From assembly GCF_019795155.1 (NCBI RefSeq), contig NZ_JAILYN010000045.1, positions 1 through 36,069 of the forward strand: a stretch of 36,069 bases of DNA. Direction: 5' to 3'. The notes below the pieces were generated by a model that made no database searches, was not told the DNA's origin, and saw nothing but the letters and a program-made list of their open reading frames with translations. Of the stretch, positions 6,633 through 13,171 are shown one piece after another; position 1 is the stretch's first letter; every line of letters starts with the position of its first letter. The DNA comes from Marinobacterium arenosum. Lineage in GTDB: Bacteria; Pseudomonadota; Gammaproteobacteria; Pseudomonadales; Balneatricaceae. The translations under genes were made by a program, and so were the position numbers.

Positions 6633-8078
6633 TCAGTCCTGCTGTTCCGGGTTTGACTGGCTGCCGCTGTTGCTGCGCTTGCGGGACGGCCGCCGGCGAC
6701 GGCGCGGCTTACGCTTGGGCTCGTCATCATCGGTGTGCTGTTGCAGGCTGTCGCGGTCGACCGAGTTGGCGTTCTGGAAATCGGTCCACCACTGGCTCAG
6801 GCCGCCAAGATCCTCGCCGCTGTTTTCACGCAGCAGCAACAGGTCGTAGGCGGCGCGGAAACGCGGGTGTTCCATCAGCCGTTCGGCGCGGTTGCCCTGG
6901 CGGCGCGGCAGGCGCAGTTGCAGCTCCCAGATTTCGCGGATCGGTGTGGAGAAGCGGCGCGGAATGGCGGTGGAGCGAACCTGCTGGCCAATCACCTCGT
7001 TGGCGGCTTCGTGCAGCGCCTGCAGTGGCGGCATTCGGTTCTGCTTCAACAGTTGATCCATCCGCTGCTGCATCGGGTACCAGAGCAGTGCGGCATAGAG
7101 GAATGCCGGGGTGACGCTCTTGCGCTGGCGGATGCGACGGTCGGTATTGCGCAGCGCGTTCAGCAGCAGCTCTTCGACCGGGTAGTTGCCGGGGTTGCGA
7201 ATCGAAGCGGCGGCCTGCGGGAACAGCTGGCCGAACAGGTTGTGCTGCTGCATCAGCCGGTAGACCCGTTCGGCGTGGCCGGACTGGAACAGTTTCAGTG
7301 ATTCGTCGAACAACCGGGCCGGAGCGATGTCGCGCAGTAGCGGGGCCAGTTCATCGATAGGTGCGGCGGTGGCCGGCTCGATATCGAACTCCAGCTTGGC
7401 GGCGAAGCGTACCGCCCGCAGCATCCGCACCGGATCTTCGCGATAGCGCTCCTCCGGATCACCGATCATGCGGATCACCTTATCCTTGATGTCCTGGTAG
7501 CCGTTGGCGAAGTCGACCACGCTGTGGTTGGCCAGGTCGTAGTAGAGCGCGTTGACGGTGAAGTCGCGTCGCAGCGCATCCTCTTCCAGCGTACCGTAGA
7601 CGTTATCGCGCAGGATCAAGCCGCTTTCGGACTGGCGGCCGTGATCGCCGCCCTCGTTGGCCGGATGAGTATCGTGACCGGCTCGGAAGGTGGCCACTTC
7701 AATGACCTCGCGGCCAAAGCGGACATGCAGCAGCTTGAAGCGGCGGCCGATCAGTCGCGATCGGCGGAACAGTTCATGGGCCATCTCCGGGTGGGCACCG
7801 GTAGCGACGTCGAAATCCTTCGGTCGCTGGCCGGTCAATAGGTCGCGGATACAGCCGCCCACCAGATAGGCTTCATGACCATCATCGAGCAGTCGGTAGA
7901 CGACCTTGTTGGCGTTCTCATCCAGCCGGCGACGGTCAATACCGTGCTCCGCTTCCGGGATGACCACCTTGCCGTGCGGGCGTGTTTCGCCGCCGAAGGC
8001 TTGGTCGGCGCTCTGTCCGTCGGTAAGCGGAGCCTTGCGCTTGAAGAACCGTCCAGCGATGTTCGAAAGGAATTTCAT
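6633..8078 (-). CDS. pcnB: Polynucleotide adenylyltransferase, poly(A) polymerase I
   Basis: PcnB adds 3' poly(A) tails that promote RNA decay and affects the copy number of some plasmids. The product has 481 residues. The nucleotidyltransferase domain shows YLVGGCIRDLLTG (71-83) and KDFDVAT (87-93) with catalytic aspartates, then RRDFTVNALYYD. The C-terminus is strongly basic (KRKPRRRRRPSRKRS), as in PAP I rather than in CCA-adding enzymes. ATG 8078 has no Shine-Dalgarno; the 5' flank instead carries TTAACAACAG, which resembles an Hfq/Crc A-rich target. It lies downstream of the crcZ-like RNA, and a TATACT-type -10 near 8145 suggests it also has its own promoter. Confidence 0.93.
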   Translation of the reverse strand: MKFLSNIAGRFFKRKAPLTDGQSADQAFGGETRPHGKVVIPEAEHGIDRRRLDENANKVVYRLLDDGHEAYLVGGCIRDLLTGQRPKDFDVATGAHPEMAHELFRRSRLIGRRFKLLHVRFGREVIEVATFRAGHDTHPANEGGDHGRQSESGLILRDNVYGTLEEDALRRDFTVNALYYDLANHSVVDFANGYQDIKDKVIRMIGDPEERYREDPVRMLRAVRFAAKLEFDIEPATAAPIDELAPLLRDIAPARLFDESLKLFQSGHAERVYRLMQQHNLFGQLFPQAAASIRNPGNYPVEELLLNALRNTDRRIRQRKSVTPAFLYAALLWYPMQQRMDQLLKQNRMPPLQALHEAANEVIGQQVRSTAIPRRFSTPIREIWELQLRLPRRQGNRAERLMEHPRFRAAYDLLLLRENSGEDLGGLSQWWTDFQNANSVDRDSLQQHTDDDEPKRKPRRRRRPSRKRSNSGSQSNPEQQD

Positions 8079-8255
8079 ATGACTGTTGTTAAGAATCCAG
8101 GCCAGTTTAGAAAGTCGCGCATCATATCATTGTTGCCGATTCAGTATAAGGGACGGGCGCTGGAGCGGCGACAGGAGCGGGCTTGGCGGCAGCTGGAAGC
8201 GGAAAATCTGTTGAGTGATAACTCGGGGGAGGGATGGAAGCTGATCGCAACTCAG

Positions 8256-8442
8256 AAAACAACACGAGCTTTAGCTTGTTGTTGTTGGATCTAAGAGCGC
8301 CGATTCGGGACGTTGTATCTGCCCTGCGATCAGCCGTCGAAGCCCCATTGTTATTTTTATTCGAGGCACTGGGCCCAACTGCTCACGACCTATTTTTATT
8401 TTTATTGATGGTTGCGGCGTTAAGCGTGTTTTTGTTGTTGTA
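8256..8442 (-). ncRNA. crcZ: CrcZ-like regulatory RNA (Hfq/Crc-titrating)
   Basis: The minus strand between cbrB and pcnB lacks a coding frame but carries four A-rich tracts of the kind bound by Hfq with Crc. These are ACAACAACAAAAACA (8441-8427), AATAAAAATAAAAATA (8406-8391), AATAAAAATAACAAT (8361-8347) and CCAACAACAACAAGC (8288-8274). A sigma-54 promoter predicts a start near 8442, immediately before the first tract. The 3' end is uncertain: AACAACAAGC-TAAA-GCTCGTGTTGTT then TTTTC (8286-8256) could terminate a transcript of about 187 nt, but the hairpin is A/U-rich and the RNA may run on towards pcnB (about 360 nt, near the length known in Pseudomonas). In Pseudomonas, CrcZ is transcribed by CbrB from this same interval and sequesters Hfq/Crc, relieving carbon catabolite repression. 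Identification is by motif content, position and promoter, not alignment. Confidence 0.75.
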
Positions 8443-8452
8443 CTAAATATAA

Positions 8453-8468
8453 TGCGAGCGCTGTGCCA
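8453..8468 (-). promoter_or_regulatory. Sigma-54 promoter of the crcZ-like RNA
   Basis: TGGCACAGCGCTCGCA on the minus strand matches the -24/-12 consensus TGGCAC-N5-TTGCA with a single change (TC for TT), and the GG/GC spacing is exact. The predicted start is near 8442. It reads away from cbrB into the A-rich RNA. Confidence 0.85.
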
Positions 8469-8541: not shown

Positions 8542-8638
8542 TGTTACCTTTCGTTTCGGTCGGTTGGGTAGTGAGGTAACACTTGGGGCGCGGCAAAGTG
8601 TTACCTGTAGAAAGTGTGGGGATATGCGGGGGTAACCG

Positions 8639-8642
<4 letters not shown>
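8542..8642. promoter_or_regulatory. Proposed CbrB upstream activating sites
   Basis: Alternating half-sites TGTTAC (8542-8547), GTAACA (8576-8581), TGTTAC (8599-8604) and GTAACC (8632-8637) are separated by 28, 17 and 27 bp. The middle two belong to a perfect 10-bp inverted repeat, GGTAACACTT (8575-8584) and AAGTGTTACC (8596-8605). The last is part of GTAACCGTTAC (8632-8642), overlapping the cbrB stop codon. TGTTAC/GTAACA is, from memory, the core of CbrB sites mapped in Pseudomonas. The array lies about 75-175 bp upstream of the sigma-54 promoter, a usual enhancer distance. Confidence 0.7.
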
Positions 8643-10059
<1,417 letters not shown>

Positions 10060-10063
<4 letters not shown>

Positions 10064-13005
10064 TGACCTTCACCATACTCACTACGGGCGGTGTCACTAC
10101 CGGCTGCCGGCATATCGCACGGCAGGGTAATTACGACTTGAGTGCCTTTATTCTGCTTGTTGTTGGCGGGACTGATAATTTCAATATTACCATAATGTTC
10201 CTCGACGATATTGTACACCAGTGCCAAACCCAGTCCGGTGCCCTTGCCGGGTTCCTTGGTGGTGAAGAACGGCTCGAACAGCTGTTTCTGCAGTTCCGGC
10301 GGAATGCCGCTGCCCTCGTCGGTTACCGTGACGATCACCGCTTCCTCCTCCAGCCAGGCGTCGATCCAGATCCGGCCATTCAGTTCCGAGGCGTCGCTGG
10401 CATTGTTGAGCAGGTTGACGAACACCTGCAGCAGCTGCTGCGGGTTGCCGGACACCCGGATCTCCGGCGGTACCTCGTTGAGGTAGTGCTGCTGCTTGCC
10501 GCGGGTATCCAGTGAGATCAGCTGGATCGCCTCGGCGACGCACTCGAACAGGCTGACCGGCTGGTGCTCACGGGTCGGTTCCTGGCGACCGGCATGGGCG
10601 AAACGCACCAGCGAGTCGACGATCCGGCCGATCCGTTTGGTCTGGCCGACGATCTGGTCGCCGGTCTCCAGGATATCGGGATTGTCGGTCTCCAGCTTCA
10701 GGTTCTGTGCCAGGCAGGCGATGCCGGTTACCGGGTTGCCAATCTCGTGGGCCACGCCGGCGGCGAAGCGGCCGATCGACGCCAGTCGCTCGCTGTGTGC
10801 CATGGTCTGCTGCATCAGGTGGTCTTCGGTTTCGTCCTCCATCAGGATCACCATACCGCTGTCCGGCTTGTTGCTCAGCCGGGCTTTATGCAGCCCGTAC
10901 CAGCGGTGGCTGCCGGCCCGCTCCAGACAGTGGCTGGGCAGATGGCCCTCCGGTTGCTGGATGAACTCGCTGAGCAGTTCTCCCCAGGGGGCGGGGAGGG
11001 CGTCGAGCCGGGTGCCGACGCAGTCGTCGGCGTCCAGTTCGGTGTAACGCTCCATCTCGGCGTTCCACAACAACACCTGGCTGTCGCCGTCCAGCGTGCA
11101 GACGCCGATCGGCAGTTTCTGCAGGGTCAGCTTGTGGTAGCGACGCAGCTTGTCCAGTTCCGCCGCCAGGCCGGTCACCTGCTCCTGGTAGTTTTCCAGC
11201 TGGGTCTCCAGCAGATGCACGTTGCGCGCCTTGAAGCCGACCGCCGGGCCCTTGCGGCTGAGCGGTTCCAGCATCGAGGCGGCCTCGACCGGACCGAGCA
11301 GGCCGGACAAATTATGTTCCAGCTGGCTGCGCAGGCGCAGCAGGTCGATCGGTCGCAGATGCTGATCGCTCAGGGCCAGCATCTCGGCCGCCAGGCGTAC
11401 CTCCCGGCGGGCGGCGTCGGCACCGAGCCGGGGCGACAGCAGGCTGACGAAATCCTCCGGCCGACTGGCTTGCAGCGGGTCGGTATTCGGCTGTTGCAGG
11501 GCGTTGACCAGGCAGGCTTCGGCGGAGCGCTGCTCCTCCGGGCTGCTCGGCGTCAGCAGCGAGATGCAGATCATCACCACCGCATTGAGCAGCAGCGACA
11601 TCATCGCGGTCTGGTCCCAGTGGGTGGCGGCCAGCTGGAACGGCATGCTCTGGCCTGCTTCATGGAACAGCGGCAGCAGCATGGTCAGCAACCAGCTGCT
11701 CATGCCGACCAGCAGGCCGATGATCACCCCCCAGCGGTTGGCGCGGGCCCAGTACAGGGTGGCCAGCAGCGCCGGCAGGAACTGCAGGAACGCAAACACG
11801 GTGATGATGCCGAGCGGCTGCAGATCGGAGTCGCTGGCGATCAACCGGTAGAACAGGTAGCTGGCCAGCACCAGGGTGACGATCAGGGTACGCCGCAGCC
11901 AGAGCAGCCAGGCATAGAAGCGGGTGGTGTCGGGCAGCGGGATCAGTGGCAGGATCAGGTGGTTTTGCAGCATCGAGGCCATTGATACGGTGGCGACGAT
12001 CAGGATCCCGCTGGCGGCGGACAGGCCGCCGATAAAGGCCAGCACCGTCAGCCATTCGGAGCCCAGCTGCATGCCCAGGTAGAACATTACGTGGTGCGCT
12101 TCGCCACCGACCCCCAGCGCCTGGCCGGCCCACAGGATCACCGGCACGCCCAGTGCCATCAGCAGCAGGAACAGCGGCATCCCCCAGGAGGCCTTGTAGA
12201 GGGTTTCGTCGGAGGCGTTTTCGGTGAACAGCATGTGGAACATGTGCGGCATCACCACCGCGGAGGCGAAGAACGCCAATACCAGCGAACGCCACAGGCC
12301 GCTGTCGACGTTCTGGAACAGGTCTTTGCCGGCATCCGGGTTGGCGATCAGCCAGGCTTGCAGCCCTTCCGTGCCGCCCAGCACCACGAACAGCGCATAG
12401 AGTCCGATCAGCAGAATCGCCACCAGCTTGATCAGCGACTCCACCGCCATCGCCACCACCAGGCCGGGGTGCTGGGTGCGCAGGGCGGCGTGGCGGGCGC
12501 CGAACAGGATCGCGAACAGCGCGATCACGCCGCAGAAACCGAAGGCGATCTGATCGGCGTTGAAGTCGCCATTGATCAGGTGCAGGGCGTCTGCCACCGC
12601 GCCGATCTGGATCGACAGCAGCGGCAGGGTGGCCAGCACGGTCAGCAGGCTGGTAAGGGTGCCCAGCGCGCCGCTGCGGAAGCGGAATGCGAACAGGTCG
12701 GCCAGCGAACTGAGCTGGTAGGTGCGGGTGATCCGCAGGATCGGTATCAGCAGCGCCGGCGCCAGGGCAAAGGCCGCGGCTGCGCCGGCGTAGGAGACCA
12801 GGAAGGTGTAGCCGCCCTCTTCGGCCAGGCCGAAGGCGCCGTAGAAGGACCAGACACTGGCGTACACGCCGATCGACAACACATGGGTGAGCGGGTGGCG
12901 AACCAGGCGCGATGGGATCCAGCCACGCTCGGTCAGGTAGGCGGCGCCGAACAGGAACAGCAGATAGGCGATCCCGATCAGTACAAGTTCTGGCAGGCTA
13001 AACAT
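10060..13005 (-). CDS. cbrA: Sensor histidine kinase CbrA with sodium/solute-symporter domain
   Basis: A 981-residue hybrid of a transporter-like sensor and a histidine kinase. Residues 1-500 hold about 13 membrane segments of the SLC5/SSF symporter family. A linker (about 500-610) and a PAS-like domain (IGVCTLDGDSQVLLWNAEM) follow. Then come the HisKA H-box FAAGVAHEIGNPVTG and an HATPase domain with N-box FVNLLNNASDA and G-boxes DEGSGIPPE and GKGTGLGLA. CbrA phosphorylates CbrB; the transporter part binds or moves histidine in Pseudomonas. The start is ATG 13005; an in-frame GTG at 13011 is possible. GAGG lies 10 nt upstream of the ATG, inside the cbrX-like gene, whose end overlaps by 8 nt, implying translational coupling. 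Confidence 0.9.
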
Positions 13006-13171
13006 CGTCACGGCGCCTCATATCGAGCAGTAAAAGAAACAGCACCAGTGCCAGCCAGGCGACGAACGGCTGGAACCAGGGTTCCGGATGGCTCTGCCAC
13101 CAGTCGACCACCATCGGCAGCATCAGGTAGACGGCGGGGATCAGCAACAGCAGTAGGCGATGCAGGTACAT
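12998..13171 (-). CDS. CbrX-like small membrane protein
   Basis: A 57-residue ORF running from ATG 13171, two bases after the gluQ stop, to TAG at 13000-12998 inside the cbrA start. The protein begins MYLHRLLLLLIPAVYLMLPM, has a Trp/Pro-rich loop (DWWQSHPEPWFQPF), a second membrane segment (VAWLALVLFLLLL) and a basic/acidic tail (DMRRRDD). In Pseudomonas a similar short gene, cbrX, overlaps cbrA and its translation is needed for CbrA translation. The matching position, size and two-helix layout support the same role, though identity was not checked by alignment. It fills a gap that would otherwise look empty. Confidence 0.8.
   Translation of the reverse strand: MYLHRLLLLLIPAVYLMLPMVVDWWQSHPEPWFQPFVAWLALVLFLLLLDMRRRDDV

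Follow-up and report, generated by a model that had tools for sequence, protein, structure and literature searches.

A decoy RNA of the CrcZ type, encoded on the minus strand between cbrB and pcnB, very probably lies in the 36,069-nucleotide stretch of Marinobacterium arenosum DNA analysed here (contig NZ_JAILYN010000045.1, hereafter the window). The CrcZ circuit itself is known; what seems to be new is a compact CrcZ-type sponge RNA whose counterparts are spread over many of the order's families, and which in some lineages seems to have parted from its sensor. A preliminary description of the window had read the element as a CrcZ-like sponge RNA, and this reading is supported by the promoter anatomy, by covariation, by extra copies bearing promoters of their own, and by the presence of hfq, crc and rpoN in the genome.

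The minus strand of the window carries, in order, dksA, gluQ, a cbrX-like small ORF, cbrA, cbrB, a gap of 560 bases (cbrB ends at 8639 and pcnB starts at 8078), pcnB, folK and panC, where dksA, gluQ, folK and panC were named from their own sequences and the matching order in the Amphritea japonica record. The element lies inside this gap, as had been described. The cbrB-pcnB synteny matches in A. japonica, and the cbrA product, which has a long N-terminal part without a Pfam match, shows 55% identity over 98% with the A. japonica protein in the equal gene order. The cbrB-pcnB gap of one member of the window's family (G017) is identical, letter for letter, to that of A. japonica NZ_AP025762; therefore the family includes Amphritea (Oceanospirillaceae in the record taxonomy), and the window genome (4.8 Mb) is other than Pseudomonas, which the preliminary description had left as a proviso. 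The cbrX-cbrA layout of Pseudomonas, with cbrX described for P. putida (PMC8871633), is also present in the window and in A. japonica, where the cbrX-like ORF has 58 aa. The features of the locus, all on the minus strand, are as follows.

12998-13171, minus strand: cbrX-like small ORF, 57 aa, overlapping the start of cbrA
10060-13011, minus strand: cbrA, 983 aa, with PAS, HisKA and HATPase_c domains (Pfam)
8639-10063, minus strand: cbrB, sigma-54 activator, 474 aa, with an orthologue in 92 of 116 family genomes (E <= 1e-115)
8542-8604, minus strand: three CbrB-type half-sites, GTAACA 8604-8599, TGTTAC 8581-8576 and GTAACA 8547-8542
8453-8468, minus strand: sigma-54-type promoter TGGCACAGCGCTCGCA (GG-N10-GC), predicting a start near 8442
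8240-8442, minus strand: candidate CrcZ-type RNA, about 203 nt, its start placed by the sigma-54 site and its end by the last conserved pair
8428-8439, minus strand: A-R-N tract 1, at the 5' end, unpaired in the predicted fold
8389-8406, minus strand: A-R-N tract 2, mostly hairpin loop in the predicted fold
8342-8367, minus strand: hairpin GCCUC/GGGGC, whose loop holds A-R-N tract 3 (8361-8347, five A-R-N triplets)
8325-8334, minus strand: closing stem, 5' arm GCUGAUCGCA
8275-8286, minus strand: A-R-N tract 4, its first half pairing with 8265-8258 in the predicted fold
8240-8249, minus strand: closing stem, 3' arm UGCGAUCAGC
8180-8239, minus strand: C-rich, G-poor, rut-like tail, a possible region of 3'-end formation
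6633-8078, minus strand: pcnB, the downstream neighbor

Promoter, tracts and fold of the element

A sigma-54 promoter with upstream CbrB half-sites is one mark of a CrcZ-type RNA, and the window has both as sequence features. The GG-N10-GC at 8468-8453, directly upstream of the A-rich tracts, bears out the promoter of the preliminary description, which had missed the three GTAACA/TGTTAC half-sites farther upstream (at -136, -113 and -79 from the sigma-54 site). These are the half-sites mutated in the crcZ, crcY and PP2810 promoters of P. putida in the experiments described in PMC6296734. Many family members carry TGTTAC near -124 and GTAACA near -80 relative to the sigma-54 site, as do the Gilvimarinus and Halomonas promoters. 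The 29 family promoters together contain 108 exact copies of TGTTAC or GTAACA, a number for which Markov versions of those upstream regions give an expectation of 6.6 (at most 14 across 300 trials). The half-sites favor intervals of about 11.25 bp (R = 0.73), but the 29 promoters, being related, form no independent sample. Among the six Pseudomonas-type crcZ promoters inspected out of ten fetched, five show TGTTAC at -124/-125, GTAACA at -102 to -104 and GTAACG at -80 to -82, and the sixth (L056) shows TGTTAC at -123 and GTAACA at -88. The conserved promoter parts therefore match Pseudomonas in kind and in helical phase; judged by these parts, the window promoter is a crcZ promoter in all but name. 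A fifth A-R-N tract lies on the minus strand at 8490-8479, upstream of the sigma-54 site, within A+T-rich sequence that would be a plausible place for an IHF site.

Multiple A-R-N tracts are a second mark of a CrcZ-type RNA. The four A-rich tracts noted earlier on the minus strand are found at 8439-8428, 8406-8389, 8361-8347 and 8286-8275; they are 12-18 nt long and, except for tract 4, largely unpaired. When both strands were scanned, this was the sole cluster of at least three tracts within 200 nt in the window, and none of 300 first-order Markov sequences of window length reached three (largest cluster 2). The G+C content is 63% in the window and 46% in the element. Among Markov copies of the element itself, in which its A-richness is kept, the four tracts stand out less (P = 0.015), and none of 5000 such copies reached the 8 AAYAAHAA words that the element contains. 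The predicted fold of the element is more stable than those of 200 shuffled versions (z = -3.15).

To explore conservation, we extracted the cbrB-downstream gaps from 49 loci of the window genome and related genomes. In 41 of the 49, three or more A-tracts come after a sigma-54 pattern (26/29 in the family and 15/20 in other families, one of the latter, L025, being Pseudomonadaceae); by this pattern rule the element was not found in the other eight (L002-L004, L026, L028, L031, L037 and L045). Among the 29 family copies with a promoter, 22 were aligned; the other seven had been set aside before alignment, since their 3' half differed or their start was misassigned. RNAalifold on the 22 RNAs gives two helices, the tract-3 hairpin and the closing stem GCUGAUCGCA/UGCGAUCAGC around tract 4, in which 13 of the 16 pairs have changes on both sides. 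There are 43 double-change cells, compared with 13.7±2.6 in shuffles and at most 9 in slid-partner controls. In 46 model matches the count is 126 compared with 33±4.4, an excess inflated by related sequences and by an alignment fitted to the model. In an alignment-free count, stems of at least 5 bp enclose 50% of 134 internal tracts, compared with 19% when the flanks are shuffled. Invariant columns fall nearly all within the A-tracts and the stem arms. In the predicted folds the design is one of A-R-N tracts displayed in loops.

A covariance model, R1, was built from these 22 RNAs, which come from 19 family genomes. It matches the window RNA, itself part of the building set, with 156 bits (E = 2e-32), and 99 of the 116 family genomes at E <= 0.01, about 80 of which were new to R1; the remaining 17 gave no match at this threshold.

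The preliminary description had ended the RNA at an A/U hairpin (8286-8256), which would give about 190 nt. This hairpin does occur in the predicted fold, but it fails as the end of the RNA: the family as a whole does not preserve the base pairing between tract 4 and the GUUGUU arm (8265-8258), the hairpin has no U-run after it, and a terminator scan of the window returned no terminator-like site on the minus strand. Conservation extends beyond it, and the closing stem ends at 8240; therefore the unit is about 203 nt. Downstream of the stem, C exceeds G in all 22 RNAs (C 25-64% and G 0-10% in the bases at hand, up to 60), with a mean C excess of 0.30 (lowest 0.03) compared with 0.09 further down and 0.06 upstream. 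This C-rich tail looks like a Rho loading region. The tail at 8239-8180 and the family tails often contain CCUCC-like stretches able to base-pair with Shine-Dalgarno sequences; they may serve for Rho loading or for pairing. In a few relatives (L176, L180 and L181) a G+C stem and then a T-run are seen instead.

The tail could also suit a classical trans-acting, base-pairing Hfq sRNA, with A-tracts for the Hfq distal face and a seed for target mRNAs, since a C-rich stretch follows the stem in the 22 RNAs (strongly in most, weakly in a few) and could pair with G-rich ribosome-binding sites. We consider this unlikely. The invariant columns lie in tracts and stem arms rather than in an unpaired seed, four tracts exceed the need of one Hfq, and the promoter is as in crcZ.

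As a CrcZ-type decoy, the element would work as follows. On exhaustion of good carbon sources, CbrA/CbrB, bound at the GTAACA/TGTTAC half-sites, would switch on transcription by sigma-54, beginning at about 8442; the RNA would soak up the Hfq/Crc repressor, and the carbon genes would be released. The RNA would end in the long closing stem, its 3' end perhaps formed by Rho at the C-rich tail and then trimmed back to the stem. Transcription, binding, titration and the mechanism of 3'-end formation are what we infer here, whereas promoter anatomy, tracts, covariation, distribution and partner genes are read from sequence.

Copies, distribution and protein partners

The window genome bears a second copy (contig C25, 433-628; L165:433-628) with its own sigma-54 and CbrB sites. 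This copy lacks the 3' arm of the closing stem and adjoins an IS256-like transposase gene (L165:1-369, named from its sequence). The other three genus members examined (L002-L004) have cbrB, and only 187-199 bases, without tracts, separate it from pcnB. Two of these three show three or four R1 matches elsewhere in their genomes, and the third (71% complete) shows none. Among the eight R1 matches outside the cbrB gap in the window genome, G001 and G002, six have the sigma-54 pattern and CbrB half-sites. Genomes of other genera likewise carry several copies or tandem ones, the latter about 390-690 bases apart; in G020 all five copies carry the sigma-54 pattern and CbrB half-sites. Up to five sponge RNA copies per genome, partly in tandem, can be seen at L175 and L177 (G020), L169-L171 (G002), and L192 and L193 (G341).

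These copies bear on whether the element instead belongs to pcnB, as a 5' leader or cis-acting regulator at the start of a long pcnB transcript that controls poly(A) polymerase. On the minus strand no terminator-like site lies between the RNA and pcnB, and the RNA keeps its place ahead of pcnB in relatives that lack cbrAB at the locus. A pcnB leader is nevertheless very improbable, given copies with promoters of their own far from pcnB (no pcnB match in L165-L171), the tandem arrangement, and congeners (L002-L004) whose pcnB has so short and tract-free an upstream region. That the tracts are A-rich DNA near a promoter, or low-complexity sequence, with no function as RNA, as the A+T content of the gap (53% compared with 37% in the window) and the further tract upstream of the sigma-54 site might suggest, deserves hardly any credence in view of the compensatory changes in 13 of 16 pairs and the R1 matches in some 80 family genomes outside its building set.

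Elements of this kind are also seen outside the family. A scan with a single CbrB protein returned mostly distant sigma-54 activators, and 9 of its 80 loci (L070-L078) were used. Among ten named loci with a CbrB of at least 60% identity, eight have a sigma-54 site and at least four tracts: Amphritea japonica, Pseudomonas fildesensis, two Gilvimarinus, Litchfieldella anticariensis, Serpens gallinarum, Halomonas maura and a Cellvibrionaceae MAG. The two that lack this combination are L071, with 334 downstream bases only, and L072. According to a 2022 review, the cbrA-cbrB-crcZ arrangement is on record only for Pseudomonas and Azotobacter, and the system is unique to Pseudomonadaceae (PMC8871633). 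In a marine metatranscriptome, cbrA and cbrB transcripts are reported from a mesopelagic community, and the passages on them name no carriers and do not mention CrcZ (PMC5073097). Among the papers listed in searches of the open-licence literature on CrcZ and CbrB, none was found to report a CrcZ-type RNA outside Pseudomonadaceae. The suggestion that the circuit extends to another lineage with a shorter RNA appears to hold, with a genome other than Pseudomonas and an RNA of about 203 nt.

The genome also encodes the partners that a CrcZ-type RNA calls for, namely Hfq, RpoN, Crc and CbrAB. Among 57 relatives, the window genome included, Hfq is found in 56 and RpoN in 55. The core of the window genome's own Hfq (hfq at L197) agrees with that of P. 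aeruginosa at 58 of 62 residues. Position 25, which in P. aeruginosa is a Tyr belonging to the distal face, is Phe here; Y25 is named in PMC4063720. The search for crc proposed earlier found the gene; the nearest solved structure of its product is P. aeruginosa Crc (E = 8e-81, 48% identity). Among the residues whose roles in RNA and Hfq contacts are described in PMC6422490, this Crc keeps R138, K139, R140, R141, E193 and R229, and it has the changes E142D and R230P. In the family, Crc is found in 109 of 116 genomes at E <= 1e-40. It would be too strong to say that the RNA strictly tracks Crc: G344, G345, G392 and G393 (drafts 87-94% complete) have an R1 match and CbrB and no Crc match at E <= 1e-40, which may reflect either the incomplete drafts or a true loss of Crc. 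In genus g2, moreover, R1 finds nothing in 13 of the 15 genomes, while Crc is present in 13 of the 15.

Relatives without cbrAB

No CbrB is found at E <= 1e-115 in 24 of the 116 family genomes, namely 15 of genus g2, six of genus g4, G011, G359 and G333 (20 of the 24 named directly and four by elimination). G333 was rejected as a case of loss, because its assembly is broken into frame-shifted pieces and fragments of cbrAB are present. At the thresholds used, G011 has no match to R1, CbrB or Crc. In genus g2, two genomes have weak R1 matches (G004 and G019, 25.6 and 29.1 bits), with no pcnB, gluQ or cbrAB match in those stretches. At L180:3233-3364 and L181:3426-3553 (genus g2, no CbrB), A-tracts lie between short inverted repeats, with a G+C stem and then a T-run; these weak matches, with no pcnB match nearby, are a possible further sponge RNA in small genomes.

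It is in the six g4 genomes and G359 that both the RNA and Crc are found (7/7). Six of the seven loci place the RNA between gluQ and pcnB and show no match to cbrA or cbrB (the cbrA search covered the locus only); at the seventh, L189, the contig ends inside the RNA. In the 150 bases upstream of the RNA, TGTTAC and GTAACA are absent in all seven, and GG-N10-GC is absent in six, the one in L189 overlapping a sigma-70-like site. All seven carry a sigma-70-like pair (9-10 of 12 matches, 17-18-base spacer) whose end lies 4-6 nt ahead of the point where the RNA match begins. An equally good pair falls within 2-9 nt of the RNA start in 0.5-4% of Markov copies, and anywhere in the 74 bases in 0.6-20%; each single match is modest evidence, and six of the seven cases are related. 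RpoN is still encoded in all three g4 genomes tested. Because genus g16, to which G359 belongs, otherwise has CbrB (10/11) and other families keep cbrB before pcnB, there seem to have been two losses of cbrAB in which the sponge was kept under a new promoter, a count judged from genus membership.

Taking the two lines together, we lean towards a joint reading in which the elements form a separate compact family of Hfq/Crc sponge RNAs at the crcZ position in a family outside Pseudomonadaceae, with loop-displayed tracts and a closing stem and with looser counterparts across the order, and in which the sponge has been freed from CbrAB in at least two genera of that family. In the freed form, cbrA, cbrB, the CbrB sites and the sigma-54 site would be gone from the locus, the RNA and Crc would be kept, and a sigma-70 promoter may drive the RNA. 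If so, the carbon signal must enter the circuit another way, or the sponge is a constitutive buffer of Hfq/Crc, and sponge-RNA control of Hfq/Crc would be an older device common to many families of the order. The half-size form would be easier to dissect, and the relatives without cbrAB offer natural experiments with a sponge and no sensor; it thus becomes testable which portion of CrcZ cannot be dispensed with, and whether Hfq/Crc release can be regulated by any route other than CbrAB.

Relation to the known CrcZ systems

The Rfam CrcZ covariance search proposed in the preliminary description did not place the element in RF01675. The whole window gave no Rfam match at the gathering score, a search with RF01675 gave none in the window genome and 14 control genomes, and an 801-base stretch around the element scored 18.1 bits (E = 0.013) against a cut-off of 95, with an alignment mainly at the 5' end that begins at 8441 with model position 1. 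Among 293 genomes of the order, 14 reached the cut-off (11 of family f21 and 3 of family f2), and the total rises to 59 when weaker matches (E <= 0.001) are included. The 11 genomes of f21, with best scores of 305-368 bits, served as positive control; f21 is taken as Pseudomonadaceae because its locus L057 closely resembles the Pseudomonas fildesensis locus L070. Conversely, R1 gives 12-19 bits at best on Pseudomonas-type CrcZ loci, driven by the A-tracts. The scores in both directions thus do not establish the RNA body as homologous to Pseudomonas CrcZ, and the body has apparently diverged or been replaced, while position, promoter and 5' tract are shared. That the element works like CrcZ is, as a reading of sequence, well supported; it is not the CrcZ of Rfam.

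The nearest known system is CrcZ of Pseudomonas (RF01675), with CrcY and CrcX, together with CrcZ and CrcY of Azotobacter. In common with it the window RNA has its place between cbrB and pcnB, its sigma-54 site, TGTTAC/GTAACA half-sites on the same helical phase (at equal offsets in many relatives), the 5' ACAACAACAA tract, several A-R-N tracts, extra copies, and Hfq and Crc in the genome. It differs in size, about 203 nt with four tracts compared with the 407 nt and six A-rich stretches given for CrcZ in PMC4063720, and in fold, with tract-bearing hairpin loops and a closing stem. It is followed by a C-rich tail, whereas a G+C hairpin is visible at the 3' end of Pseudomonas CrcZ, and, unlike in Pseudomonas, some of its relatives have neither CbrAB nor CbrB sites. 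For these relatives the nearest parallel is CrcZ*/CrcY*, the sigma-54-independent processed forms described in P. putida and A. vinelandii (PMC6292655). These are decoy RNAs made without a sigma-54 promoter, comparable to what the cbrAB-less relatives must do; however, their hosts keep cbrB and the sigma-54 promoter, whereas the cbrAB-less relatives have neither at the locus and carry a sigma-70-like match immediately upstream of the RNA.
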